Assembly (NCBI RefSeq): GCF_020149915.1
Contig: NZ_CP083760.1
Location: 434,001 to 498,000, forward strand
Source of the DNA: Candidatus Sulfidibacterium hydrothermale
GTDB taxonomy: Bacteria; Bacteroidota; Bacteroidia; Bacteroidales; F082
Reading direction: 5' to 3'
DNA: 64,000 nt
Shown here piece after piece: positions 29,374 to 41,231 of the stretch; within the stretch, counting starts at the first letter, position 1; the number at the start of each line of letters is the position of its first letter. A program made the position numbers and the translations under genes. The notes below the pieces were generated by a model. It was not told where the DNA came from. It did not search any database and saw nothing but the letters and a program-made list of their open reading frames with translations.

Positions 29374-31164
29374 TTATTTTCCACTAAGCATTTCGTCAAT
29401 GGCTTTGCAGGCACGGAAACCGTCGGCAATAGCCGAAATAGCATCAGCTGTACGGTTTACGGCGTCACCACCGGCAAATACTTTCGGATCACCGGTTTGT
29501 TGTTTTTCGTTGACAACAAACCGACCTCTTTCGATCTTAATCTTTTCAGTAAACTCTTCCGGCAGGAAGCTGTAATCGCCTTTCTGACCGATAGCGGCCA
29601 TCACAGCGGTGGCTTCCAGGATGGTGTTACTGCCTTCGATGGCTACCGGCCGCGGACGTCCGCCTTTATCATCCGGAACCATTTTGGCTTTCAGATATTC
29701 TACTGCTTTTACCCGGCCTTTTTCATCTTTATGAATTTTGACGGGAATTCCCTGCGGGATGATGTGTACACCTTCATCTTCAGCACCTTCAATTTCTTCC
29801 CAGTCGGCGGGCATATCTTCCACACGACGACGGTAAAGAATGGTTACATCGGCACCTAAACGACGGCTTACACGTGCTGCGTCGATGGCTACGTTACCAC
29901 CACCCACAACAACGACTTTATCACCGATATCTACTTTTTCGCCGGAGTTAATCATGTAGAGGAAACGATAAGCCTGCATCGAGCCTTTGGCATCGTCGCC
30001 TTCAACACCCAGCGGCCAGGCATCGGGGAATCCAACACCCATGAATACCGCATCGTATTTGTCGTAAATCTCTTTAAAGCTGATGTCTTTACCCACTTTG
30101 GTATTGAAGTGAATCTTCACGCCGATACTCTTGATGTACTCGATCTGTTTATCCAAACTTTCAATGGGGAAACGATATTTCGGGATACCGTACATGGTAG
30201 CTCCACCGGCTTTGGCGTTGGCTTCGTAAATCGTGACATCATAACCACGCAGCGCCAGGTAATAGGCTGCGGTAAGACCGGAAGGACCGGCACCAATGAT
30301 TCCCACCGTTTTTCCGTTGGGTTCCCTGATTTCTGGATTCACGATTTCGCGGGTAATTTCGGTGGTGGCTGCTGTTTCGGTAGCATACCGTTTCAGCCAG
30401 CGAATAGCCAGTGCTTCACCACGGGTAGCAATGGCACAGACATCTTCGCACCGGCGGGTACAAACCTTACCACACATTTCCGGCAGCGGGTTGTTGTCGT
30501 ATATGATACGCAATGCGTCGGCATCGTTACCGGCTGCAATGGCGTTAATATATTCGGGGATGTGCATGTGCTCCGGACAAACTTCGGTACACAATCCGCA
30601 GCTGATACAACGGCTGGCTTCGGCACGGGCTTCGGCTTCGCTGTATCCGAGAACCACTTCGGCAAAACTCTTGACGCGTTCTTTGCCTTCCAGTTCCGGC
30701 ATGGGAACACGGTTGAAAACGTTGAGAGAGATTTCCTCGGTGCTGTAGAATGAAATTTGTTCTTTGCCATCCGGGTTATCTTTACCGGGAGTCCATAAAA
30801 AGTCGTCCGGATCTTCACTGACAAACAGGTAATCTTTTGTCAGGCTCAGACTGCCGGTAGGACATACTTCCACGCAAAGGGCACACCAGCAGCAACGGCC
30901 GTTGTCCACACGGGGACGCAGTCCGGAATCTCCTTTTTTCCCTTCAATTCCTTCGATATGAATCATATCGATGGCAGCATTCTGGCAGATGGTGGAACAG
31001 TTTCCGCAACCGATACATTCGTCCAGGTCGTTATAGTGAAGCCCCCGGTAACGCGGAGCGGCTTCCTTTGATTCTTTCGGGTACGAAATGGTATGCGGTC
31101 TTTTACCAAACTGTTTTAAAGCAGTTAATGGTTTCAGTGTTCCGTTTAGATCAAAAAAGCTCAT
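29374..31164 (-). CDS. NuoI-like ferredoxin fused to GltD/Nfn-type NAD(P)H oxidoreductase
   Basis: A 596-residue fusion and the last gene of the operon. Residues about 45-110 are a NuoI/MbhN-type ferredoxin domain with two CxxCxxCxxxC clusters (Cys50/53/56/60 and Cys91/94/97/101). Residues about 180-250 are the iron-sulfur helical domain of glutamate synthase small subunits, with Cys186/189/192/196 and Cys231/235/239/243. The flavin oxidoreductase part follows: FAD site GIIGAGPSG (288-296), nucleotide site VVVVGGGNVAIDAAR with LYRRR after it (arginines suggest NADPH), and the second FAD motif VFAGGDAV near 565. It is expected to carry electrons between NAD(P)H or ferredoxin and the NuoB/C/D module. 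Bacterial complex I and archaeal Mbx keep these as separate proteins. Confidence 0.9.
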   Translation of the reverse strand: MSFFDLNGTLKPLTALKQFGKRPHTISYPKESKEAAPRYRGLHYNDLDECIGCGNCSTICQNAAIDMIHIEGIEGKKGDSGLRPRVDNGRCCWCALCVEVCPTGSLSLTKDYLFVSEDPDDFLWTPGKDNPDGKEQISFYSTEEISLNVFNRVPMPELEGKERVKSFAEVVLGYSEAEARAEASRCISCGLCTEVCPEHMHIPEYINAIAAGNDADALRIIYDNNPLPEMCGKVCTRRCEDVCAIATRGEALAIRWLKRYATETAATTEITREIVNPEIREPNGKTVGIIGAGPSGLTAAYYLALRGYDVTIYEANAKAGGATMYGIPKYRFPIESLDKQIEYIKSIGVKIHFNTKVGKDISFKEIYDKYDAVFMGVGFPDAWPLGVEGDDAKGSMQAYRFLYMINSGEKVDIGDKVVVVGGGNVAIDAARVSRRLGADVTILYRRRVEDMPADWEEIEGAEDEGVHIIPQGIPVKIHKDEKGRVKAVEYLKAKMVPDDKGGRPRPVAIEGSNTILEATAVMAAIGQKGDYSFLPEEFTEKIKIERGRFVVNEKQQTGDPKVFAGGDAVNRTADAISAIADGFRACKAIDEMLSGK

Positions 31165-31193
31165 ATTTTTTGTTTTTTGTCTTGTTCTGATAA

Positions 31194-32297
31194 TTAACGT
31201 TCAATTTCCGGAGGACAGGTTCCCAAACTATTCATGATGGCAGAGATATCTGCTAAATTCTCTCCAACCAGGAGATTTTCAAGCAGGGTAATCGCATGTA
31301 CGTAAGCTGCTCCACGGAAATGGGTCCGACGCGGATGCGTACTTCCATCACTGACGATGTACATTCCTACTTCGCCACGGGTGGCTTCGGTACGGGCATA
31401 AGCATCTCCTTTGGGAAGAGCCCATTTATGCGGATTGGGAATCCGGTTGTAATACTCACCGGAAGGCATTTTTTCAATGACTTGGCGGATAATCCGGATC
31501 GACTGGCGGATTTCCTGACGACGGACCAATGCCCGTGACCAGATGTCACCGCCTTCTGCAGTCGGGACAATAAAGTCCAGTTTGTCATATACTTCGTATG
31601 GGTCGTCAATACGGATGTCGCTTTTGACTCCGGAGCCTCGTAAAACAGGACCAACTACGCCCCATTCTACGGCTTTTTCTTTAGGAATGACACCCACACC
31701 TTGTGTTCTTTTCTGGAAAATGGTATTCTGGAACATCAGGTCATCATAATCATTCAACCTTTTTTCCATGTAATCCATGGTACGAAGTACTTTGTCGGCA
31801 AAGCCTTCGGGAAGATCACGACGAACGCCGCCCGGCCAAATGTACATGTGGTAAACACGGCCACCGGTCAATTCTTCAAAGAGATCGAGGATGTAGTTTC
31901 GGTCTCCTACCGACCATTGGCCGATGGTGTACAAACCCAGAGAACCGGCTTGTCCGCCGTACCACAGCAGGTACGAACCCATACGGGCCAGTTCCAGCAT
32001 CAGTACGCGGATGTATTTGGCTCTTTCGGGTACTTCACGGCCTTCGAGCAGTTCCACAGCACGGGCGTATGATTCTTCTACCGGGTCAGGTTCCGGAACA
32101 CAAAAACGGCACAGCAGCGTAAAGCTTTGCAGCCAGTTTCTTCTTTCCTGTAATTTTTCAAAAGCTCGGTGCAGATATCCTACTTCGGTACGGGCTCTCA
32201 CAATGGTGTCGCCTTCTACCTGCACTTTGACCATCATGTTACCGGTAATCCCGGGGTGCTGAGGCCCAATATATAAAGTTGTTGCCTTTTCTCTCAT
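31194..32297 (-). CDS. NuoD/hydrogenase-large-subunit-like protein (Mbx L-type)
   Basis: A 367-residue member of the NuoD/group 4 NiFe-hydrogenase large-subunit superfamily (GPQHPGITGNM start; RTEVGYLHRAFEKL at 36-49). I chose the ATG at 32297, immediately after the NuoC-like stop; the reading frame extends upstream only by overlapping nuoC. The metal-ligand positions are altered: the N-terminal RxCxxC site reads RFCVPE (Cys66, Glu69) and the C-terminal DPCxxC site reads GTCPPE (Cys361, Glu364), so one Cys of each pair is replaced by Glu. The complex I quinone residues are also missing by eye alignment (Thr18 for His, Val67 for Tyr). It is the catalytic-site subunit of the peripheral arm, with unknown acceptor. 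Confidence 0.92.
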   Translation of the reverse strand: MREKATTLYIGPQHPGITGNMMVKVQVEGDTIVRARTEVGYLHRAFEKLQERRNWLQSFTLLCRFCVPEPDPVEESYARAVELLEGREVPERAKYIRVLMLELARMGSYLLWYGGQAGSLGLYTIGQWSVGDRNYILDLFEELTGGRVYHMYIWPGGVRRDLPEGFADKVLRTMDYMEKRLNDYDDLMFQNTIFQKRTQGVGVIPKEKAVEWGVVGPVLRGSGVKSDIRIDDPYEVYDKLDFIVPTAEGGDIWSRALVRRQEIRQSIRIIRQVIEKMPSGEYYNRIPNPHKWALPKGDAYARTEATRGEVGMYIVSDGSTHPRRTHFRGAAYVHAITLLENLLVGENLADISAIMNSLGTCPPEIER

Positions 32298-32298
32298 T

Positions 32299-32868
32299 TT
32301 ATCTCGAGTATTTTTTTGCAAAATCAGGTATTTCTTCTCCATCGCGGTTAGCAATGGTTTCACGTACATCTTGTGCATCTTCGCGTCCCGGACGCTGCCA
32401 GAAAGTCTTTTCAGCGTAAGCAGCTGTATCAAAGTCGCGGCGGAATGGCGGCGGGCCTTGCCAGTCTTCCAGGATAAATTCGTCGGGAGCTTCCAGGCCG
32501 GTGAACTGAACACCGAACATTTCGCGCAGTTCTCTTTCGTAGGTATTCAATTGCCGCCAGATCATATCCAGATTGTCCATTACCGGATTATCTCTGTCGA
32601 GGCGGGTACGGACAAAAACTTTTATTTTATCTTTTGGCGACCATACAATGAAAACCACTTCCAGTTCGCCTTCTTCCAGCCAGTCAACACAGCTTACATG
32701 AGACAGGTGGATAAAGCCCATTTCGTCTTTCAGGTAAAAAAGTATGGAAGGAATGGTTTCTTTTTTCACCGTAAAGTCCACACGGTTGTCCGGAAAGTCG
32801 TTTTTCTCCACGGCATCCGCGAAGTTGGCTTTTATCCGCTTAATGATATTTTCTTTCAATTCTTTCAT
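32299..32868 (-). CDS. NuoC-like subunit (complex I 30 kDa / Mbx K-type)
   Basis: A 189-residue protein of the complex I 30-kDa family. It shows the alpha-beta N-terminal half (VSCVDWLEEGELEVVFIVWS) and the conserved YERELREMFGVQFTGL with the following FILEDWQGPPPFRRDFD, which docks to the large subunit. Length is normal for a separate NuoC. It joins the NuoB- and NuoD-like subunits in the peripheral arm. It lies 12 bases after the NuoB-like gene and 1 base before the NuoD-like gene. Confidence 0.93.
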   Translation of the reverse strand: MKELKENIIKRIKANFADAVEKNDFPDNRVDFTVKKETIPSILFYLKDEMGFIHLSHVSCVDWLEEGELEVVFIVWSPKDKIKVFVRTRLDRDNPVMDNLDMIWRQLNTYERELREMFGVQFTGLEAPDEFILEDWQGPPPFRRDFDTAAYAEKTFWQRPGREDAQDVRETIANRDGEEIPDFAKKYSR

Positions 32869-32880
32869 CGTGATCTTTTT

Positions 32881-33426
32881 TTACCAGTTATATTCAGGCA
32901 TTACCCAGTTAGGAATGATTTTCTTTTGATTGGCACGATACCATTCCAGGTTTTCTTTGTATTGCTTTGCACCGTTGGCGCGGCCTTCGGCAATCCGTTT
33001 TTGCAACTGGGCAAATCCGGAAAGAACCGCTTCAGGACGCGGCATACAGCCGTTGATATATACATCAACCGGAAGGTATTTATCCAGTACTTTAATGGTA
33101 TTATACGAATCGTAATACATCCCGCCGTTAATGGTACAGGATCCGAAGCCGATGACATATTTCGGGTCTTGCATTTGTTCGTACACCCGAATTACCCGTT
33201 TGAGTGTTTTTACCGTCAGATATCCGGTAATCAGTAAAACATCAGCCTGACGCGGAGTGGCAGCACCCCGTACTCCCAAACGTTCGGCGTCGTATCGTGA
33301 AGTCATAGTAGGCGGAATTTCAATGGCTCCGCATCCTGTTCCGTAGGCCAAAACCCAAATAGAGTGTTTTCGTGCCCAGTTCTGGATAAAATCAACTATC
33401 TTTTGAGAATTCTTATCGTTAATCAT
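32881..33426 (-). CDS. NuoB-like iron-sulfur subunit (Mbx J-type)
   Basis: A 181-residue NuoB/hydrogenase small-subunit relative that should hold the proximal [4Fe-4S] cluster. The visible cysteines are Cys32 (GTGCGAIE), Cys97 (GFGSCTI) and Cys127 (NGCMPRP). Complex I has two adjacent Cys at the first site and group 4 hydrogenases have CxxC; here it is C-G, so the fourth ligand is not clear from sequence. SRYDAERLG and PRQADVLLITG are family signatures. It forms the interface with the NuoH-like membrane subunit and the NuoD-like subunit. Confidence 0.92.
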   Translation of the reverse strand: MINDKNSQKIVDFIQNWARKHSIWVLAYGTGCGAIEIPPTMTSRYDAERLGVRGAATPRQADVLLITGYLTVKTLKRVIRVYEQMQDPKYVIGFGSCTINGGMYYDSYNTIKVLDKYLPVDVYINGCMPRPEAVLSGFAQLQKRIAEGRANGAKQYKENLEWYRANQKKIIPNWVMPEYNW

Positions 33427-33436
33427 CGTCTTTCAT

Positions 33437-34348
33437 TTAAAAAATTACAGCCTGTAAAATAGCCAACAGTCCGAAAAAGCTCGGCCATCCCCAAAACCAG
33501 CGTACTGCCTGCTCCGTGCGATAACGCGGACTTACATTTCCGTATAATACCGGAATCATGTAAAGGGCAAAGGTTTTTACTAATAAAATCAGCAGGTTAT
33601 CGGCTCCGCCCATGAACAAATCCACATAAAGGGTCAGTTTGGCAAAGGTGAATACCGAACCCGAAGACATCATTACAAAGAGATACTTTCCGCCGTTTTC
33701 GGATACAGGACCAGATGCCAACTCCGTAGGTGCTCCGACAATATCGAAAGGAGAGTACCGGAACATTCCGAGCATAGCCATTACTGCGGCAATAAAAGCA
33801 AAGGGCGAAGAAAACATCAACCAGGTTCCGGCTTGTTCCTGAGCAGCCATGAGACCGGTAATGGAAGTGGTATGATACTGAATCATCAGCGCCACGAGTG
33901 CCAACACCCACGGAATCTCAAATCCCACCATCTGGCTCAGACCACGGGTTACCCCTATGGCTGAGTTCGGGTTACCGGTTTGTCCGGCTCCAAGAGCCAT
34001 TCCCAACGGACCAAAGGTCATAATATACAACAGGAAGATTAAATCGCCCTGAAAATTCAGGTTGGGGAACCAGTTGTTGTGAGTCAGTACCGGAACCACC
34101 ATGAGTGTCATTACTGATGATACCATCAGGAAAGCAGGTCCCATGTGATGCATAGCGCCATGATGGATGGCTGATGATTTTGATCCCAGTTTAAAAGCAT
34201 CAATAAAATTCTGATACCAGGGCGGTCCTTTTCTGTTTTGAATTCGGGCTGTAATTTTACGTGTCAGCCCGCCATAGGTCATCCCTACTACAAAAGCCAC
34301 CATAAATGTGACCACCGCACCTAAAATATCCATTAATACTGTTTCCAT
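33437..34348 (-). CDS. NuoH-like membrane subunit (Mbx M-type)
   Basis: A 303-residue membrane protein of the complex I subunit 1 family with eight or so helices. Charged family loops are present: TARIQNRKGPPWYQ near residue 35 and PFDIVGAPTELASGPVSENGG (about 205-225, first 20 residues quoted as the key acidic loop) containing the Glu residues that link redox chemistry to ion movement. It connects the peripheral NuoB/C/D module to the antiporter-like subunits. It lies 15 bases downstream of the 615-residue antiporter-like gene. Confidence 0.94.
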   Translation of the reverse strand: METVLMDILGAVVTFMVAFVVGMTYGGLTRKITARIQNRKGPPWYQNFIDAFKLGSKSSAIHHGAMHHMGPAFLMVSSVMTLMVVPVLTHNNWFPNLNFQGDLIFLLYIMTFGPLGMALGAGQTGNPNSAIGVTRGLSQMVGFEIPWVLALVALMIQYHTTSITGLMAAQEQAGTWLMFSSPFAFIAAVMAMLGMFRYSPFDIVGAPTELASGPVSENGGKYLFVMMSSGSVFTFAKLTLYVDLFMGGADNLLILLVKTFALYMIPVLYGNVSPRYRTEQAVRWFWGWPSFFGLLAILQAVIF

Positions 34349-34363
34349 TGATCTATTTTTAGA

Positions 34364-36211
34364 TTAGAACAAAACGTTCTGAAATAACAACACAATTACA
34401 ACAAACACGATGACATAAACGGTGTACGTTTGTCCGTTACCCGTATAAATACGTCGGACGAACTCAAAAAGCGATTCAAGTCCGTTGGCAAAATCGGTAT
34501 AATATTTATCAATTTGCCGGCGCATGGCAGGAGCAACAGCTCTAAGGAAAGGCTGCATAAACCCTACCGAGAAAGTCAGATTTTCATCTTCAGCCGGAAC
34601 TTCACCCGAAGTACTGATGTCTTTGGTTGTAACGTAGCGTGTTTCTTTGTATCCTTTCCATGTGAGAAAAATCAGGAAGAAGACGAAAATGGCAATGATA
34701 TAATAAAGAATGGGTTGCAGCACAACCTGGTCGCCCCAGGCATTTAAGATAATGGAGCTGTCCCATAAATGTTTGTAGGTGTCAATAAATCCGAGATCGA
34801 TCAAACCGCTATTGATGGGTTTTAAAAGGATTCCGGGGAAAGTACCTAAAACAAACATTACAATTCCCATTAAAATCATGGGTACTACCATTACAGCCGG
34901 TGCTTCTTTTACATGTTCCCATTCTTTTTCTTCCTGTCCCAGGAAAAATCCGAAGAGGAATTTGTAACAATAAAGGAATGCCGCTGTACTGGAAAAGAAT
35001 ATCATCACAACCAGGATGTAATGATTACTGGTAATCAATGATTCGTACAACATCCATTTCCCGACAAATCCACCCAACGGCGGGATTCCTGCCAGAGCAA
35101 TAATAGCCAGCAAGGCAGCCAGGAAAGTCCAGGGCATTTTACGAATTAATCCGGTTACTTCGGTAAAGTTGGTTGTTCCGGTTTGTTTTTCAACCGCTCC
35201 GGTAACCATGAAAAGGGTTCCTTTAAACAGGGAGTGCATTACAGCCAGGAAAAGACCGGCCAGCATTCCCAGTTCCGTACCGATGGCAATACCGGTAATA
35301 ATGTATCCCAGTTGTGCCACTGACGAATAGGCTAAAAGCTTTTTGGCATCATCCTGTTTAATGGCCCAAAGGGTTCCGAGTACAGCAGTAATACCGCCCA
35401 GCCAGGCAATAACTTCTCTGAACCAGAATCCCTGGGGAATTTGATTCACCATGGTGACCAAAACGATAACCATTCCGTAAACACCCATTTTGGAAAGTGC
35501 TCCGGAGAAAATGCTGGTATAGGCCATTGGCGAATTGCTATATGCATCAGGAGCCCATACATGCAGAGGCATCATGGCTGCTTTTACGCCAAAAGCCATC
35601 AGGAAAAGAATCGGAAGTGTGATTTGCATTCCCATGTTCATTGCGGGATAAGCATTGATCATTTGTCCGATGCTGAACGAGCCGGTGATGTGGTGTACAA
35701 TAACAATGGCCATCAGCATGGCATAGGCGCCAATTGCGCTAAATACGAAATACTTGATTCCGATGCGCTGGATATCTTTTCCGCTGTAAAGCGTCATGAG
35801 ATATGATGACCATGTCATGATTTCCCAGAAAATGAAGAAAGAGATCAGGTCAACGCTGAGCAGAATGCCCATCATGGCCATGATGCTGAGGATAAAGTTG
35901 AAATAAAAATATCCTCTGCGCTCTTTTCCTTTCATAAAGCCAACGGAATAGATCGCGGCAAGCGATCCCAAACCAAGTACAATAAGGGAGAAGAGCCAGC
36001 TGAAATGGTTTACCCCCCACATCAGTTTAATTCCACCCAAATAAAGGGTAGCGGCTTCGGCAATTTTCACATACGAGAAAAAGAGCCCGGCCGGTACCAA
36101 AACCGAAGCGAGGAAAAGCAAATCCTGAAGCGCTTTGCTTACTTTTCCGGCGAAATAGGTTATCACCGCACCTCCGAGAAAGATCAAAAATATTATATGT
36201 ATCATTTCCAT
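34364..36211 (-). CDS. NuoL/MrpD-like antiporter subunit, 615 residues
   Basis: A 615-residue polytopic protein of the proton-conducting membrane transporter family (about 14-16 helices). Key pump residues appear: Glu in FFIFWEIMTWSSY near residue 130 and Lys in GVKAAMMPLHVWAPDAY near 210, followed by the discontinuous-helix region. The C-terminal extension after about residue 490 ends with a long linker and a final helix, as in NuoL-like subunits with a lateral arm. It corresponds to the second antiporter subunit (H') of the archaeal Mbx order. Confidence 0.93.
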   Translation of the reverse strand: MEMIHIIFLIFLGGAVITYFAGKVSKALQDLLFLASVLVPAGLFFSYVKIAEAATLYLGGIKLMWGVNHFSWLFSLIVLGLGSLAAIYSVGFMKGKERRGYFYFNFILSIMAMMGILLSVDLISFFIFWEIMTWSSYLMTLYSGKDIQRIGIKYFVFSAIGAYAMLMAIVIVHHITGSFSIGQMINAYPAMNMGMQITLPILFLMAFGVKAAMMPLHVWAPDAYSNSPMAYTSIFSGALSKMGVYGMVIVLVTMVNQIPQGFWFREVIAWLGGITAVLGTLWAIKQDDAKKLLAYSSVAQLGYIITGIAIGTELGMLAGLFLAVMHSLFKGTLFMVTGAVEKQTGTTNFTEVTGLIRKMPWTFLAALLAIIALAGIPPLGGFVGKWMLYESLITSNHYILVVMIFFSSTAAFLYCYKFLFGFFLGQEEKEWEHVKEAPAVMVVPMILMGIVMFVLGTFPGILLKPINSGLIDLGFIDTYKHLWDSSIILNAWGDQVVLQPILYYIIAIFVFFLIFLTWKGYKETRYVTTKDISTSGEVPAEDENLTFSVGFMQPFLRAVAPAMRRQIDKYYTDFANGLESLFEFVRRIYTGNGQTYTVYVIVFVVIVLLFQNVLF

Positions 36212-36230
36212 AGTATTATTCGCTTAGAGG

Positions 36231-37715
36231 TTATTGTTTTAATGATAATACATGATGAATGTATTGCCCTTTGTCCATTAAGCTGGCTGAAGCTTTGTGC
36301 AAGATGCCGGTAACAGCATCCGGATAAAATCCGATTACCAGAATAATGGCACCGAGAACCAGCATCACCACCATGGCATTAATGGTTGGCCGGTGCGGTT
36401 TAATAGACGCTTCTTTTTTGAAGAAATAAATCCGGTTCACCACGCGCAGGTAATAAACCAGTTCTACCACACTCACAATTAAAACCAATGCCATGATCAG
36501 GATCATGTTGCTGTCCGCTGCGGCCGTCATTACCGAAAGTTTACTCCAGAAACCGGCAAACGGCGGTAATCCTACAATGGCAAAAGCGCCCAGAGCAAAC
36601 AGCAGCGAAGTGATCGGTAAGTATTTCGACATGCCGTTTACCTCTTCTATTTTTTTCTCGGTAGAGTTATATACGAGATAACTTCCGGAGAAGAACAGAA
36701 GCGATTTGATAATGGCATGGTTCAGCATCAAAAACAGTGCAGCAAAAACACCCTCTTTGGTTCCGAAACCGAAGGCCACCAGTACTAATCCCATCTGACC
36801 GATACTGGAATAAGCCAGCATTCTTTTGAGTTTTTCCTGTCGGATGGCTGCTGTTTCGGCAATGATGAGAGTAATCATACCAATAATGATGAGGAAGTTC
36901 AGGGTTCCGGAAAGGTCGAAGATGGTGTAGGTATAACGAATGATTGCATACACAGCCGCTTTTACTACAATACCGGCAAAAGCAGCGCCTACCGGACCAG
37001 GAGCTTCGGCATACGCATCAGGAGCCCAACCGTTAAGCGGGAAAATCTCTGCTTCAATACCAAGCGCGGTAACAAAAAAGATGTATGAGATGATTTTGTA
37101 TGCCGGCTTCATGGTATGAATACGGTTGGCAATGTCAGCCATATTCAGCGTGCCGAGCTGCGAATAAATAATCATGATGGCGAGCAACAGGAAAGTAGAA
37201 GCAATCGAACCCATCATAACATATTTAAAGGAAGCTTCAGCGCTGTTACGTCCTTTATAAAAGGCGGTCAGACCATAGGCCGAAATACTGGTAATCTCAA
37301 TAAATACGAACATGTTGAAGATATCACCTGTCAGTACGATACCTACCGAACCGGTAATCAGCATCATCAGCATCAGGAAGTATTTCAGGGCCGGTTCATA
37401 ATCTACGTTTCGTTTAAACCGGTAACTGTAGGCCCATACCAGGAGTCCGAGGAACTCCATTAAAACGACCAGGAAGCCGGAAAAGGCGCTAAATACCAGA
37501 TTAATTCCAATTGGTGGTACCCATCCGGCGATAACTTCTACGATAGGGCCGTGAACCAAAACATGGTTTAAAAGGTTCACCGACAATATCAATAAATAGG
37601 TGAGTACCAGTCCTGGCACAATTCTGACCAGTTCTTTCCATATCATCCCGAGCAGCGGAATCAGAAATGCCGCTAAAAGGGGAATTGCTACAAATAATAC
37701 CGGAGTTCCTACCAT
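36231..37715 (-). CDS. mrpD: MrpD/NuoN-like antiporter subunit, 494 residues
   Basis: A 494-residue MrpD-like membrane protein with about 14 helices, of normal length. The first pump glutamate is kept (FIEITSISAYGL near 130). The TM7 lysine site, usually VKAAxFPLH, reads GIEAEIFPLNGW, so the expected Lys is Glu221, and the His is Asn. The following Lys in IVVKAAVYAI is present. It overlaps the mrpC-like gene by 7 bases. It is one of two antiporter-like subunits of the complex. Confidence 0.93.
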   Translation of the reverse strand: MVGTPVLFVAIPLLAAFLIPLLGMIWKELVRIVPGLVLTYLLILSVNLLNHVLVHGPIVEVIAGWVPPIGINLVFSAFSGFLVVLMEFLGLLVWAYSYRFKRNVDYEPALKYFLMLMMLITGSVGIVLTGDIFNMFVFIEITSISAYGLTAFYKGRNSAEASFKYVMMGSIASTFLLLAIMIIYSQLGTLNMADIANRIHTMKPAYKIISYIFFVTALGIEAEIFPLNGWAPDAYAEAPGPVGAAFAGIVVKAAVYAIIRYTYTIFDLSGTLNFLIIIGMITLIIAETAAIRQEKLKRMLAYSSIGQMGLVLVAFGFGTKEGVFAALFLMLNHAIIKSLLFFSGSYLVYNSTEKKIEEVNGMSKYLPITSLLFALGAFAIVGLPPFAGFWSKLSVMTAAADSNMILIMALVLIVSVVELVYYLRVVNRIYFFKKEASIKPHRPTINAMVVMLVLGAIILVIGFYPDAVTGILHKASASLMDKGQYIHHVLSLKQ

Positions 37716-38092
37716 TTTAAATTCTTTATTTCGTCAATATTTAAAGTACCATGATGTCTGTATAAGCGAATGACCAGTGCCAATGCCACGGCAGTAACAC
37801 CAAAGCCAATAACAATAGCGGTAAGTACCAGAGCCTGCGGTACGGGGTCTACCATTTTACTTACACTTTTAAAGTTGTCAAGAAATCCTTGCGAAAAGAT
37901 AGGTGCTGTACCGCCTTTGTAATAACCAATGGCCACAATCAACAGGTTAAGGCCCGAATCGATCACAGAAAGGCCAATCACAATCTTTAACAAAGATTTT
38001 TTCACCATTGCGCCGTAGAGTCCAATAAGCATCACCAAAACGGCGGTGCCGTACACGGCATAATCTAAGTATCCAAATAATGTATTATCCAT
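37709..38092 (-). CDS. mrpC: MrpC / NuoK-like subunit
   Basis: A 127-residue three-helix membrane protein of the NuoK/MrpC family (LYGAMVKKSLLKIVIGLSVI and PQALVLTAIVIGFGVTAVAL). The second helix carries few charged residues, as in MrpC. It overlaps both neighbours by 7-8 bases, consistent with tight co-translation within the operon. Confidence 0.94.
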   Translation of the reverse strand: MDNTLFGYLDYAVYGTAVLVMLIGLYGAMVKKSLLKIVIGLSVIDSGLNLLIVAIGYYKGGTAPIFSQGFLDNFKSVSKMVDPVPQALVLTAIVIGFGVTAVALALVIRLYRHHGTLNIDEIKNLKW

Positions 38093-38801
38093 TGTTCTCC
38101 CCTTTTTCGTGTAAAACAGTATAAATTACACCGGTCAGTTCGGCGCCCACTTTAAAGCCTACGGCAATATAAATAATGGGGATTACCCCGCCGCTAAACA
38201 GGTTATTCATCACCCCTGACGGAAGGAAGTTTTGTAAGAAGGTACCTCCGTGCATAAAGCCGAGGAGACCTACGCCGGCAAAAGTGATCCCTGCCAGCGA
38301 CTCTACAATGGAAAGGGCGGTGTGACTCACTGAGTAATTTTCATAAGCCAGCAGCATCAGCAAGAAGCCGGTGGCAATGATTACCCCGCCCTGAAAACCT
38401 CCGCCGGGCGACAGGTGTCCGTGAATGAAAACGTAAGCACCCAGCAGGATGATCGCCGGAAACAACAGTTTTGAACCGGAAGTAACAATACTACTGGAAT
38501 TAAATAATACGGAACGTTCGCCCACGTGGTGTCTTTTCTTATACAATACACTGCCTAACACCGTAACCGCAAGAAAAAGTACGGTAACCTCTCCCAGGGT
38601 ATCAAAGCCCCTGAAGTTGACCACAATACTGGTAACAGCATTGGAAACTTTCAGCGGGTTCTGTGTTTTGGCCAGGTAAATATCTTTAACGGGTGCTGCG
38701 CTTTTTACAAAATGGGGCTGCCCGAAACCAATATCAAAATAGGTATCGGCAATGTAATAGCCGAGAACGGCCAGCAGCAGTATGACTAAAAACTTTTTCA
38801 T
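38085..38801 (-). CDS. MbhE-MnhB fusion (MrpA C-terminal piece plus MrpB)
   Basis: A 238-residue membrane protein that joins two modules. Residues about 1-90 match MbhE, the last part of MrpA (key segment NAVTSIVVNFRGFDTLGEVT at 54-73). Residues about 110-238 match MnhB/MrpB (key segment FIHGHLSPGGGFQGGVIIAT at 125-144). In Mbh and Mbx these are separate or arranged differently. It overlaps the mbhD-like gene by 4 bases and mrpC by 8. Confidence 0.93.
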   Translation of the reverse strand: MKKFLVILLLAVLGYYIADTYFDIGFGQPHFVKSAAPVKDIYLAKTQNPLKVSNAVTSIVVNFRGFDTLGEVTVLFLAVTVLGSVLYKKRHHVGERSVLFNSSSIVTSGSKLLFPAIILLGAYVFIHGHLSPGGGFQGGVIIATGFLLMLLAYENYSVSHTALSIVESLAGITFAGVGLLGFMHGGTFLQNFLPSGVMNNLFSGGVIPIIYIAVGFKVGAELTGVIYTVLHEKGENNG

Positions 38802-39082
38802 TTCACAGCAGATTTAAATTTTTCTTTCTTGTCAGACTCATCTTCCATACGTACCGTATTTCGTATGGTGATTACAAAGATGATGGTGGTCAGCGCCACG
38901 CCAATGGCCGCTTCTGTAAGGGCAACATCAGGTGCCTGTAACAGGTAATACAAAATGGAAAGGATCAGGCTGATAATTCCTGTTGCCATTACCGCATAAA
39001 GCAGGTCCTTTTGTATAATTGAATATACCGAAGCGGCAATCATTAACAAAAGCAAAACGGATATTAAAATGAAATAAATCAT
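38798..39082 (-). CDS. MbhD-like subunit (DUF4040, MrpA C-terminal piece)
   Basis: A 94-residue three-helix membrane protein with the LLQAPDVALTEAAIGVALTT segment (48-67) that is diagnostic for the DUF4040/MbhD module, where the Glu and Asp residues contribute to ion movement at the Mrp interface. It overlaps mrpG by 4 bases and the MbhE-MnhB gene by 4. Confidence 0.93.
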   Translation of the reverse strand: MIYFILISVLLLLMIAASVYSIIQKDLLYAVMATGIISLILSILYYLLQAPDVALTEAAIGVALTTIIFVITIRNTVRMEDESDKKEKFKSAVK

Positions 39083-39444
39083 GCTTTTTCCTCCTTTGTT
39101 TTTTCGTGTGGAACCACTTCCTGATAAGCGTCCATATTTTCTTTGTCTTCGCTTTTAATATAGGGATAATGCCCACGGCGATAGTTAGCACGGGCCAGCG
39201 CATGTGAGCTGATCGGGTTGGAGTAGGCAATGAAAATAATGATAATCAAAGATTTCCAAATCCAGTCGGGTTGTAAAAGACCCACACCCAATACGAGGCT
39301 CATACCCCCCAGTGTAGTTGCTTTGGTTCCGGCCTGCAGGCGGTTGTATGTGTCAGGCATCCGGAAAATTCCCAAACCACCGAGAAACAAAAACGTACTT
39401 CCGATAATTAGTAAAATACCGCCAATAATTTCCAGTACACTCAT
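39079..39444 (-). CDS. mrpG: MrpG / MnhG subunit
   Basis: A 121-residue three-helix protein with the G-family signature (GGLGIFRMPDTYNRLQAGTK at 23-42). The C-terminal 40 residues are a hydrophilic tail rich in Lys and Glu. It overlaps mrpF and mbhD by 4 bases each (ATGA-type junctions). Confidence 0.95.
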   Translation of the reverse strand: MSVLEIIGGILLIIGSTFLFLGGLGIFRMPDTYNRLQAGTKATTLGGMSLVLGVGLLQPDWIWKSLIIIIFIAYSNPISSHALARANYRRGHYPYIKSEDKENMDAYQEVVPHEKTKEEKA

Positions 39445-39698
39445 AAGGCGCCCTCCAAATATCTTGCAATGACAATTACGCCGATAAAGCCAAGAACAGC
39501 ATATACCAACGCTACGTCAACATAAATAAAACGTTGAAACATATATCCCAGTAACACCAGGCCGGCCACCCCAATGGTGGTCAGCGTATCCATGGCTACG
39601 GTACGGTCGGCCGCCGTCGGTCCTTTTACAAACCGGATGGCCGAGAAAATCATTCCCAGTGCCATGAACACAAATGCATAATAAATGATGTAAGTCAT
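39441..39698 (-). CDS. mrpF: MrpF / MnhF subunit
   Basis: An 85-residue three-helix protein with RFVKGPTAADRTVAMDTLTT (22-41), the MrpF signature including the conserved Asp residues. It lies 2 bases after mrpE and overlaps mrpG by 4. Confidence 0.95.
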   Translation of the reverse strand: MTYIIYYAFVFMALGMIFSAIRFVKGPTAADRTVAMDTLTTIGVAGLVLLGYMFQRFIYVDVALVYAVLGFIGVIVIARYLEGAL

Positions 39699-39700
39699 AA

Positions 39701-40213
39701 CTAAAAGATTTTTAAGAGTATTTTCTCAAAAGGTTCGGCTATATCTTTGAAAGCCTGTTCCGGATCAGTGGACTGAACATCAATCCAATGAATATAAAAA
39801 GTATCGCCGATCACATCTACCGACAATGTTCCGGGGGTAAGCGTGATGCTGTTAGCCAAAACCATTTTGGAATAATTGGTTTTTAATTTGGTTTTGAATT
39901 TGACAATACCCGGATTGATGGGCAACGAAGGAGAAATCACTCTTTTGGCCACATCCAGATTGGCAATGATCAGTAATTTCAGAAACACAAAAAAGTACCA
40001 GACCATCCAGAAAATCTTTACCGGATTAAGAATGGACAGGGTACAACAGGTGAAAAGCCGGATACTGGCCAATGAAATCAACATGGATACCACGGCTCCG
40101 ATCAGGACTTCCTGCCAAAACAGGGTGCTGGTGAACATCAGCCATACCAGAAACAGAAAAATCCAGTTGACAATGAACCGTCCCAGTTTTTGATTGAATG
40201 TTAAACTTTGCAT
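39701..40213 (-). CDS. mrpE: MrpE / MnhE subunit
   Basis: A 170-residue membrane protein of the MrpE family: two or three N-terminal helices followed by a soluble domain with ILANSITLTPGTL-like sequence (LANSITLTPGTLSVDVIGD) typical of MrpE. I chose the ATG at 40213; an in-frame TTG at 40261 would overlap the preceding gene. It starts the membrane-arm part of the operon. Confidence 0.93.
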   Translation of the reverse strand: MQSLTFNQKLGRFIVNWIFLFLVWLMFTSTLFWQEVLIGAVVSMLISLASIRLFTCCTLSILNPVKIFWMVWYFFVFLKLLIIANLDVAKRVISPSLPINPGIVKFKTKLKTNYSKMVLANSITLTPGTLSVDVIGDTFYIHWIDVQSTDPEQAFKDIAEPFEKILLKIF

Positions 40214-40232
40214 AAAGCGATTTTTTAAGGTT

Positions 40233-41231
40233 CTATCCCAGGTCGTATTTTTTACTTTCAAAATATTTCATGAACTGTACTCTTTCGTATTCAGCCGGAT
40301 TGGGGCTATTTACCTGGCTCATTTTGCCGCGGAAATCATCCAGTTTGTCAAAACCGTGTTTTTCCATCCAGGCTTTCAGTTCATCAAGCATAGTGGAAAC
40401 GTACCCGATACCGTTGTTGTAAAGGGTGGAAACCACCTGAACGGCATTAGCCCCGGCCAGAATTTCTTTGATCACTGATGCGCCGTCGTGAACGCCGGTA
40501 GAAGCAATCAAATCGCAACCCAGCCGTCCGGAAAGAATAGACATCCAACGCAAGGTAATGGCTACGTCAGACGGTTGACTCAGTACGTTTGACGGAACAA
40601 CTTTGAAGTTGTCGATGTCAAAATCGGGATGGAAGAAACGGTTAAACAAAACAACGCCGTCCACACCACTTTCCGAAACTTTTTTCACAAACGAAGCCAG
40701 GTCAGCAAAATAATAACTTAACTTGGCAGCTACCGGGATGGAAACCTTTTCTTTAATTTTAGCCAAAATGTTCAAGTAGGCTTCTTCCACGTCGGAACAG
40801 CTTTTTGAAAAATCGGAAGGAAGGGTGAAAAGATTTATTTCGATAGCATCTGCACCGGCTTCTTCAATTTTTTTAGCAAAAAAGCTCCATTCCCATGAAC
40901 TGACACAGTTGATACTGGCAATTACCGGAATGCTCAGTTCTTTTTTTGCTTCCTGAATCAGCGAAAGATATTTCTTGATGTTATCGTCTTTGATTTTATA
41001 ATCGTAATAATCGAGAAAGCGAACATCAGGAAATTCCAGGTCTTTTTCTTTTTCAAGAATGCTCTGGTATTCGTTATAAATTTCTTCTTCGAAAATCGAT
41101 TTTAAAACCACCGCACCGGCACCGCTCTCCTCTATTTTTTTCAGGTTGGCTACCGAAGCGGTCAGACTGGAACTACCCACCACCACCGGTGATTTGAGTT
41201 TCATTCCTAAATAACTGACTGATAAGTCCAT
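40233..41231 (-). CDS. Dihydroorotate dehydrogenase-like flavoprotein
   Basis: A 332-residue TIM-barrel protein of the PyrD superfamily (MDLSVSYLGMKLKSPVVVGS start, ASINCVSSWEWSFFAKKIEE region, VVSTLYNNGIGYVSTMLDEL near 280). It probably binds FMN. It is annotated in many Bacteroidota as dihydroorotate dehydrogenase-like and is distinct from the true PyrD. It lies 19 bases upstream of mrpE on the same strand and is very probably the first gene of the Mbx-like operon. Whether it donates electrons to that complex is unknown. A -7 element is found 39 bases before its ATG. Confidence 0.88.
   Translation of the reverse strand: MDLSVSYLGMKLKSPVVVGSSSLTASVANLKKIEESGAGAVVLKSIFEEEIYNEYQSILEKEKDLEFPDVRFLDYYDYKIKDDNIKKYLSLIQEAKKELSIPVIASINCVSSWEWSFFAKKIEEAGADAIEINLFTLPSDFSKSCSDVEEAYLNILAKIKEKVSIPVAAKLSYYFADLASFVKKVSESGVDGVVLFNRFFHPDFDIDNFKVVPSNVLSQPSDVAITLRWMSILSGRLGCDLIASTGVHDGASVIKEILAGANAVQVVSTLYNNGIGYVSTMLDELKAWMEKHGFDKLDDFRGKMSQVNSPNPAEYERVQFMKYFESKKYDLG

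Follow-up and report, generated by a model that had tools for sequence, protein, structure and literature searches.

The closest described relative of the system discussed here is the membrane-bound sulfane reductase of Pyrococcus furiosus (MBS, or Mbx; PDB entry 6u8y), a complex that draws its electrons from ferredoxin – with a yield of 41 kJ/mol for their transfer to sulfane sulfur – and whose subunit J holds a proximal [4Fe-4S] cluster through C28, C93 and C123, leaving one iron without a cysteine ligand; this cluster is the proposed site of polysulfide reduction (PMC7684303). Further cysteines are dispensable, as the mutants C25A (subunit J) and C85A/C385A (subunit L) are still active (PMC7684303). 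Here we describe an operon of 14 genes in the bacterium Candidatus Sulfidibacterium hydrothermale (Bacteroidota) that encodes subunits homologous to those of MBS – including two antiporter subunits and an MbsE-type fusion – and that differs from its archaeal counterpart in two additions: an NfnL-like FAD/NADPH domain fused to subunit N, and a gene for a DHOD-like flavoprotein. The genes lie head to tail, all on the minus strand, at 29374-41231 of the window, by which we mean the whole stretch of 64,000 nucleotides analysed (positions 434001-498000 in a genome of 3.27 Mb that forms one contig).

MBS-type clusters of 13 genes are also described from bacteria, namely Thermotoga maritima (MBX) and strain 3DAC; ferredoxin is named as the donor of both complexes, and the cited passages, with which we compare by description and not by sequence, mention no fusion of N (PMC9431562, PMC10356935). 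Elemental sulfur (S0) raises expression of T. maritima mbxA 4.36-fold (PMC9431562) and of 10 of the 13 MBS genes in 3DAC (PMC10356935), and Mbx has been published for Caldanaerobacter/Thermoanaerobacter as well (PMC4596419). Because of these bacterial examples, the type is limited neither to archaea nor to a single lineage. An earlier reading of the same DNA from its letters alone (hereafter the sequence-only reading) had suggested a distinct energy-conserving complex of this lineage; what stands of this is a distinct predicted ion pump outside complex I, and the confinement to archaea or to one lineage falls away. What is new is the form seen in Bacteroidota; the kind of complex is already known. 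No description of an MBS or MBX in Bacteroidota was found in the open-access literature searched. The abstract of Leng et al. (2022), on the vent Bacteroidetes VC2.1 Bac22, is said to mention polysulfide reduction, so an earlier notice may exist there.

Two further systems resemble the operon in being complex I-like and devoid of the NADH module NuoEFG, with no donor assigned: the 11-gene complex I of Ignavibacteria, described as nuo genes (PMC6338057), and, in Caldithrix abyssi, a second locus described as ndh genes (PMC5317091). Both may be of another type. As the locus of C. abyssi carries 11 tags (Cabys_1521-1531), it may be of the 11-gene type rather than an MBS.

Family assignment

The 13-subunit set of MBS is present, with both antiporter subunits and the module resembling Mrp E/F/G. 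Among structures in the PDB, J, L, M, H and H' each find P. furiosus MBS as their top match (scores in Table 1), and the N-terminal stretch of N scores 87 bits against MbsN, the next protein of that kind reaching 56. In a tree of L (32 sequences, 367 columns, LG+F+G4; support values from the unrooted tree), the operon protein, MbsL and their relatives split from complex I and the hydrogenases at 100/100; complex I itself is supported at 94/100 and a group running from Bacteroidota to Calditrichota inside the MBS side at 99.8/100, the order of the other branches on that side being poorly resolved. The tree of M (20 sequences) recovers the same split with moderate support (91.4/92).

Judged by its sequence, then, the operon is of the MBS/MBX type, not a complex I and not a hydrogenase. 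The sequence-only reading had recognised the Mbh/Mbx gene order, with two antiporter subunits as in Mbx, in place of the Nuo order; the structural matches agree with it, and the phylogeny of the NuoD- and NuoH-like proteins, which it had proposed as a check, places both outside standard complex I. A complex I variant reducing quinone, or an [NiFe] hydrogenase, would share the general fold and the kinship of subunits, and the NCBIfam NuoD model NF004739 even fits L above its cut-off (433 vs 360 bits); yet the 100/100 split of the L tree, the absence from L of both quinone residues and of two of the four nickel-binding cysteines, and a single cysteine in J where complex I has a tandem pair make either identity scarcely credible. 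Both were rejected on the structural matches, the residue checks and the L tree. Also rejected was the motif CRFC of the operon's L as a hydrogenase CxxC: in the alignment its second cysteine alone matches a nickel ligand.

The active site

Relatives were collected by searching genome contigs with the NuoD-like protein, which returned 73 loci. In the operon's J, the cysteines C32, C97 and C127 are spaced like C28, C93 and C123 of MbsJ, and the position of C25, which is not a ligand, holds Gly. Exactly three cysteines, with the fourth gone, are found in J of 59 of the 67 loci with a J match; six others (L062, L063, L065, L066, L069 and L075) have four, in an MbsJ-like CTGC or CTAC, L076 is incomplete, and the protein of L068 is a different, hydrogenase-like one.

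Subunit L of the operon keeps two of the four cysteines that bind nickel in hydrogenases, and the positions of the quinone-site His and Tyr hold Thr and Val. Across 67 of the 73 loci (six with short fragments of L were left out), the equivalents of C85 and C385 are each kept in 65, every one of the 67 has Glu at both other nickel-ligand positions and Val where Nqo4 has Y87, and the position of Nqo4 H38 is Thr in 59, Pro in five, Val in two and His in one. The two loci that lack both left-over nickel cysteines are L068 and L069, whose L proteins share 50-51% identity with that of the operon.

Because J offers three cysteines and L has lost the nickel and quinone residues, a sulfane-type site is likely, and a hydrogenase or quinone reductase unlikely. 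The sequence-only reading had left the acceptor blank; this can now be sharpened, since the pairing of a three-cysteine J with a two-cysteine L is the signature published for the site at which MBS reduces polysulfide (PMC7684303). The operon's J is an MBS-type protein that naturally lacks the fourth cysteine, which fits the activity of the C25A mutant in P. furiosus.

Electron input

The operon departs from the archaeal complex in N. Every one of the 54 complete relatives has an N of 590-625 residues (14 of the 68 N matches are incomplete and were left out of the counts), compared with 208 for P. furiosus MbsN. Its C-terminal 445 residues match NfnL/NfnB, a protein with NADPH, FAD and two [4Fe-4S] clusters, at 316 bits. 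All 16 cysteines expected to bind clusters are kept in 54 of 54 sequences. N differs from NfnB in two respects, both seen in every one of the 54: Lys stands at the position of the cluster ligand Glu117, and there is a new Cys; nor does any of the 14 genes encode NfnS by Pfam or NCBIfam. A regular NfnAB is encoded elsewhere in the genome. The cluster beside the FAD has a changed set of ligands, and on this indirect argument we favour a plain electron conduit over flavin-based bifurcation at the NfnL-like domain.

A YRR motif, tied to the use of NADP(H) in a study of DsrL from which the roles of the NfnB ligands are also taken (PMC7596348), occurs in 47 of the 54 sequences. The seven without it (L062-L066, L068 and L075; Desulfurellales, Hippea, Caldisericum-type and Zixibacteriota) are all labelled as lying outside Bacteroidota. 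The donor side of the complex therefore reads as NADPH by its YRR motif, a narrowing of the sequence-only reading, which had allowed NAD(P)H or ferredoxin; ferredoxin may still enter at N.

It may instead be that ferredoxin is the true donor and that the NfnL-like domain reduces NADP+ or balances NADPH, which would make the complex an energy-conserving ferredoxin:polysulfide/NADP+ oxidoreductase. P. furiosus MBS works from ferredoxin and thereby has sufficient energy at its disposal, older work named Mbx a ferredoxin:NADP oxidoreductase, and the genome encodes both pyruvate:ferredoxin oxidoreductase and RnfC. We nevertheless hold this to be unlikely, as the fusion gives N an NADPH-type site of its own that the short archaeal MbsN lacks, and direct transfer from ferredoxin to NADP+ inside N would presumably bypass the coupling site at J/L/M.

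Ion pumping

Of the ten residues on the charge axis of H and H', the operon retains eight, and of the five of M it retains three. The equivalents of E138, E219, K250 and K393 are kept in MbsH, and those of E128, K217, K248 and K399 in MbsH'; H330 of the first and H336 of the second, both present in P. furiosus, are Leu. The relatives repeat this pattern: in 45 MbsH proteins, E138 and E219 are invariant, K250 is kept in 40 and K393 in 44; in 47 MbsH' proteins, all four residues are invariant; and in 61 MbsM proteins, D196 is kept in 59 and E203 and E211 in all. Nearly every Glu and Lys along the proton paths proposed for H and H' is thus retained; set against the changes at H330, H336 and two further Glu of MbsM, this leaves ion pumping by the complex plausible.

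Function and energetics

On balance, the complex is probably an energy-conserving NADPH:polysulfide (sulfane sulfur) oxidoreductase with H+/Na+ transport. The DNA itself shows the 13-subunit set, the three-cysteine cluster site, the loss of residues for nickel and quinone, and the NfnL-like fusion; from these we infer an electron path and a coupling. NADPH would reduce the FAD in the C-terminal half of N, from where electrons would travel by way of N's four [4Fe-4S] clusters and reach the proximal cluster of J; this cluster, with its one iron free of a cysteine ligand, would cleave polysulfide in the J/L/M pocket, and the cleavage would drive both antiporter subunits. The Mrp-like end (E, F, G and MbhE+B) would then feed a Na+ gradient, and ferredoxin could serve as an additional donor at N.

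Several points weigh against this assignment, the main difficulty being energy: we estimate from redox potentials that the step from NADPH to polysulfide releases about 10-21 kJ/mol, barely enough for one or two ions. The fourth cluster ligand in N and the preference for NADPH are readings of motifs, and with YRR missing from seven of the N proteins, NADPH cannot be taken as the general donor for all relatives. In the membrane arm, His is found at H330 in none of the 45 MbsH proteins and at H336 in five of the 47 MbsH' proteins (a neighbouring His is kept in all), and E104 and E193 of MbsM are kept in none of the 61. A separate Psr/Phs-like cluster in the genome could reduce sulfur alone. Physiological data from two organisms also count against it: neither S0 nor thiosulfate stimulated Melioribacter roseus (PMC3534657) – our locus L058 is from a metagenome-assembled genome labelled as this species, not from the type strain itself – and Caldithrix abyssi supplied with H2 or acetate was unable to respire S0 or thiosulfate (PMC5317091). 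While fermenting, C. abyssi did reduce both, with slight stimulation, which its authors credit to other enzymes (PMC5317091).

The small release of energy keeps the ferredoxin-donor reading in play, together with a reverse one, in which the ion gradient would drive oxidation of sulfide or short polysulfide with reduction of NADP+. By our estimate the NADPH/polysulfide couple is near equilibrium, and the related NfnL-like DsrL enzymes run both ways (PMC7596348), but the other sulfur cluster of the genome looks reductive (PhsA/PsrA-like) and the characterised MBS is a reductase (PMC7684303); reverse operation appears very improbable.

If NADPH:polysulfide oxidoreduction is the true function, sulfur may serve certain anaerobic Bacteroidota as an electron sink from which energy is gained, and polysulfide-linked energy conservation of the MBS type would extend to this phylum and its neighbours. 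A complex I-type core would have gained an NADPH-type input through fusion with an NfnL-like domain, independently of NuoEFG, and would offer a case for how complex I-like pumps acquire their electron-input modules. More tentatively, the operon might represent a second independent route to a pyridine-nucleotide-driven pump of the complex I type: an NADPH-driven, ion-pumping sulfane reductase with an NADPH module derived from NfnL instead of NuoEFG, a three-cysteine catalytic cluster and a dihydropyrimidine dehydrogenase-like FMN partner that perhaps gives a second output.

Conservation and distribution

The 73 loci come mostly from metagenome-assembled genomes labelled Bacteroidales, Bacteroidetes or Chlorobiota, with fewer from Melioribacteraceae, Calditrichota, Neomarinimicrobiota, Desulfurellales, Hippea, Caldisericum and Zixibacteriota. 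A complete set of the 13 core genes is present in 37 loci, 33 of which show identical order and strand with gaps below 400 bases; the order of whichever core genes are present – just two or three in some loci – is kept in 72 of the 73, L068 being the exception. The gene arrangement is far from chance. Some record titles point to habitats, the labels Guay, SulCav and ZodW being read as Guaymas sediments, sulfidic cave and Zodletone spring.

In a sample of the phylum, 352 of 395 genomes have a NuoD-like match; among the matches listed (best first), the genome itself (100% identity) and one other (73%) are of the operon type, and the remaining ones listed lie at about 40% or below, six of them having been placed in the L tree as ordinary Nuo. 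In a sample of the family, 31 of 60 genomes have a match, with the operon type at an identity of at least 77% in 16, including all five genus members sampled; one further genome holds a relative at 49%, and the other matches listed do not exceed 40%. As metagenome-assembled genomes have gaps, these counts are lower bounds. The relative at 49% (G446:C173:11381-12469) perhaps belongs to a second MBS subtype.

The DHOD-like flavoprotein

A DHOD-like gene lies upstream of the core genes, within 253 bases, in 23 of the 73 loci and downstream in six, one of these being 2.4 kb off; among the 18 loci with at least 1.2 kb on both flanks, it is upstream in ten, downstream in two and absent in six. The genome encodes five such paralogues of the PRK07565 family, 36-51% identical (G000:C1, at 1404596, 1417405, 474245, 1745613 and 683915). 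One is in the operon, a second follows NfnAB directly, a third comes after the Hox hydrogenase genes, a fourth is transcribed divergently from pyruvate:ferredoxin oxidoreductase, and the fifth lies some 1.5 kb from a gene resembling methylmalonyl-CoA decarboxylase; four of the five thus adjoin low-potential redox enzymes (the MBS-type complex, NfnAB, the Hox hydrogenase and pyruvate:ferredoxin oxidoreductase).

By Pfam and PDB matches, N and the DHOD-like protein jointly carry the module set of dihydropyrimidine dehydrogenase/PreTA, split here over two genes at opposite ends of the operon. The two might accordingly form a dihydropyrimidine dehydrogenase-like branch that reduces an organic substrate, leaving another to J/L/M, and the frequent placement of the gene beside the operon would suit such a pair of outputs. 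We consider this improbable, given the loci in which the gene is absent despite long flanks and the four further copies elsewhere in the genome; moreover, the position aligned with what we take to be the catalytic cysteine of the dihydropyrimidine dehydrogenase FMN domain is Cys in the operon protein and in only 17 of 26 relatives. The operon's DHOD-like protein is regarded as an accessory redox protein of unspecified role, and the family may be a shared accessory of low-potential redox enzymes.

Genome context

The sequence-only reading had taken the genome for otherwise ordinary Bacteroidota, an impression that does not hold for electron transport: a search of the genome for the NuoD family returned nothing beyond the operon's L and an Ehr-like protein, canonical NuoD being absent, and a Psr/Phs-like cluster is present besides. 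This second sulfur cluster (L125:81-11007; G000:C1 ~2624080-2635006) encodes a PhsA/PsrA-like molybdoenzyme, which at 462 bits falls short of the 694 set as cut-off for PhsA, together with an iron-sulfur subunit and a membrane subunit of the NrfD kind. Sulf_transp and rhodanese proteins number two each, and HdrA/QmoC-like proteins are encoded upstream. Such a gene content suggests that the organism uses sulfur compounds as electron acceptors.

RnfC, NqrF and pyruvate:ferredoxin oxidoreductase are encoded as well. The genome search gave no match for an [FeFe] hydrogenase; an NAD-linked [NiFe] hydrogenase of the Hox type, with CGIC and DPCLSC motifs, is present. Its locus (L119:6069-10704; G000:C1 ~1747068-1751703) comprises a NuoE/F fusion, a HoxU-like protein and the small and large subunits, followed by an open reading frame of 170 residues and a DHOD-like gene. 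The small-subunit-like protein of an Ehr/Hyf-like cluster (L005:7286-13954; G000:C1 ~1007285-1013953) has 158 residues and no Pfam match and, as it contains no cysteine, is probably without a proximal cluster.

Operon layout

Subunit identities (Table 1) rest on matches to Pfam and NCBIfam profiles, which agree with those of the sequence-only reading from MrpE to the terminal ferredoxin-oxidoreductase fusion. Its coordinates and single strand likewise hold, with 14 genes in place of the thirteen it had counted.

Table 1. Genes of the operon in order of transcription, with positions in the window
Gene product	Positions	Strand	Matches and remarks
DHOD-like flavoprotein, PRK07565/NF005741 family, first operon gene	40233..41231	-	NF005741 420 bits (cut-off 303); top PDB match FMN domain of dihydropyrimidine dehydrogenase, 48.5 bits
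MrpE-like (MbsA)	39701..40261	-	PF01899 143 bits; TTG start, alternative ATG 40213
MrpF-like (MbsB)	39441..39698	-	PF04066 69 bits
MrpG-like (MbsC)	39079..39444	-	PF03334 87 bits
MbhD-like (MbsD)	38798..39082	-	PF13244 71 bits
MbhE+MnhB fusion (MbsE)	38085..38801	-	PF20501 31 bits + PF04039 83 bits
MrpC/NuoK-like (MbsG)	37709..38092	-	PF00420 98 bits
Antiporter-like subunit MbsH	36231..37715	-	6u8y_H 355 bits vs MbhH 220
Antiporter-like subunit MbsH', C-terminal extension	34364..36211	-	6u8y_X 318 bits vs MbhH 177
NuoH-like membrane anchor MbsM	33437..34348	-	6u8y_M 141 bits vs MbhM 73, HycD 63
NuoB-like MbsJ	32881..33426	-	6u8y_J 230 bits, next 145, MbhJ 114; Cys = C32, C97, C127 only
NuoC-like MbsK	32299..32868	-	PF00329 89 bits
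NuoD-like MbsL	31194..32297	-	6u8y_L 358 bits vs Nqo4 251, MbhL 157; start ATG 32297
MbsN (two ferredoxin-type [4Fe-4S]) + NfnL-like domain (two [4Fe-4S], FAD, NADPH site)	29374..31164	-	5jca_L 316 bits over 150-594; 6u8y_N 87 bits over 10-117; NF010590 654 bits, under cut-off 946

Consistent with the overlaps and tiny gaps noted in that reading, neighbouring genes overlap by up to 29 bases or stand up to 29 bases apart, given the TTG start of the MrpE-like gene; the alternative ATG leaves a 19-base gap there. The start of L is the listed ATG, not the GTG of the longer open reading frame.

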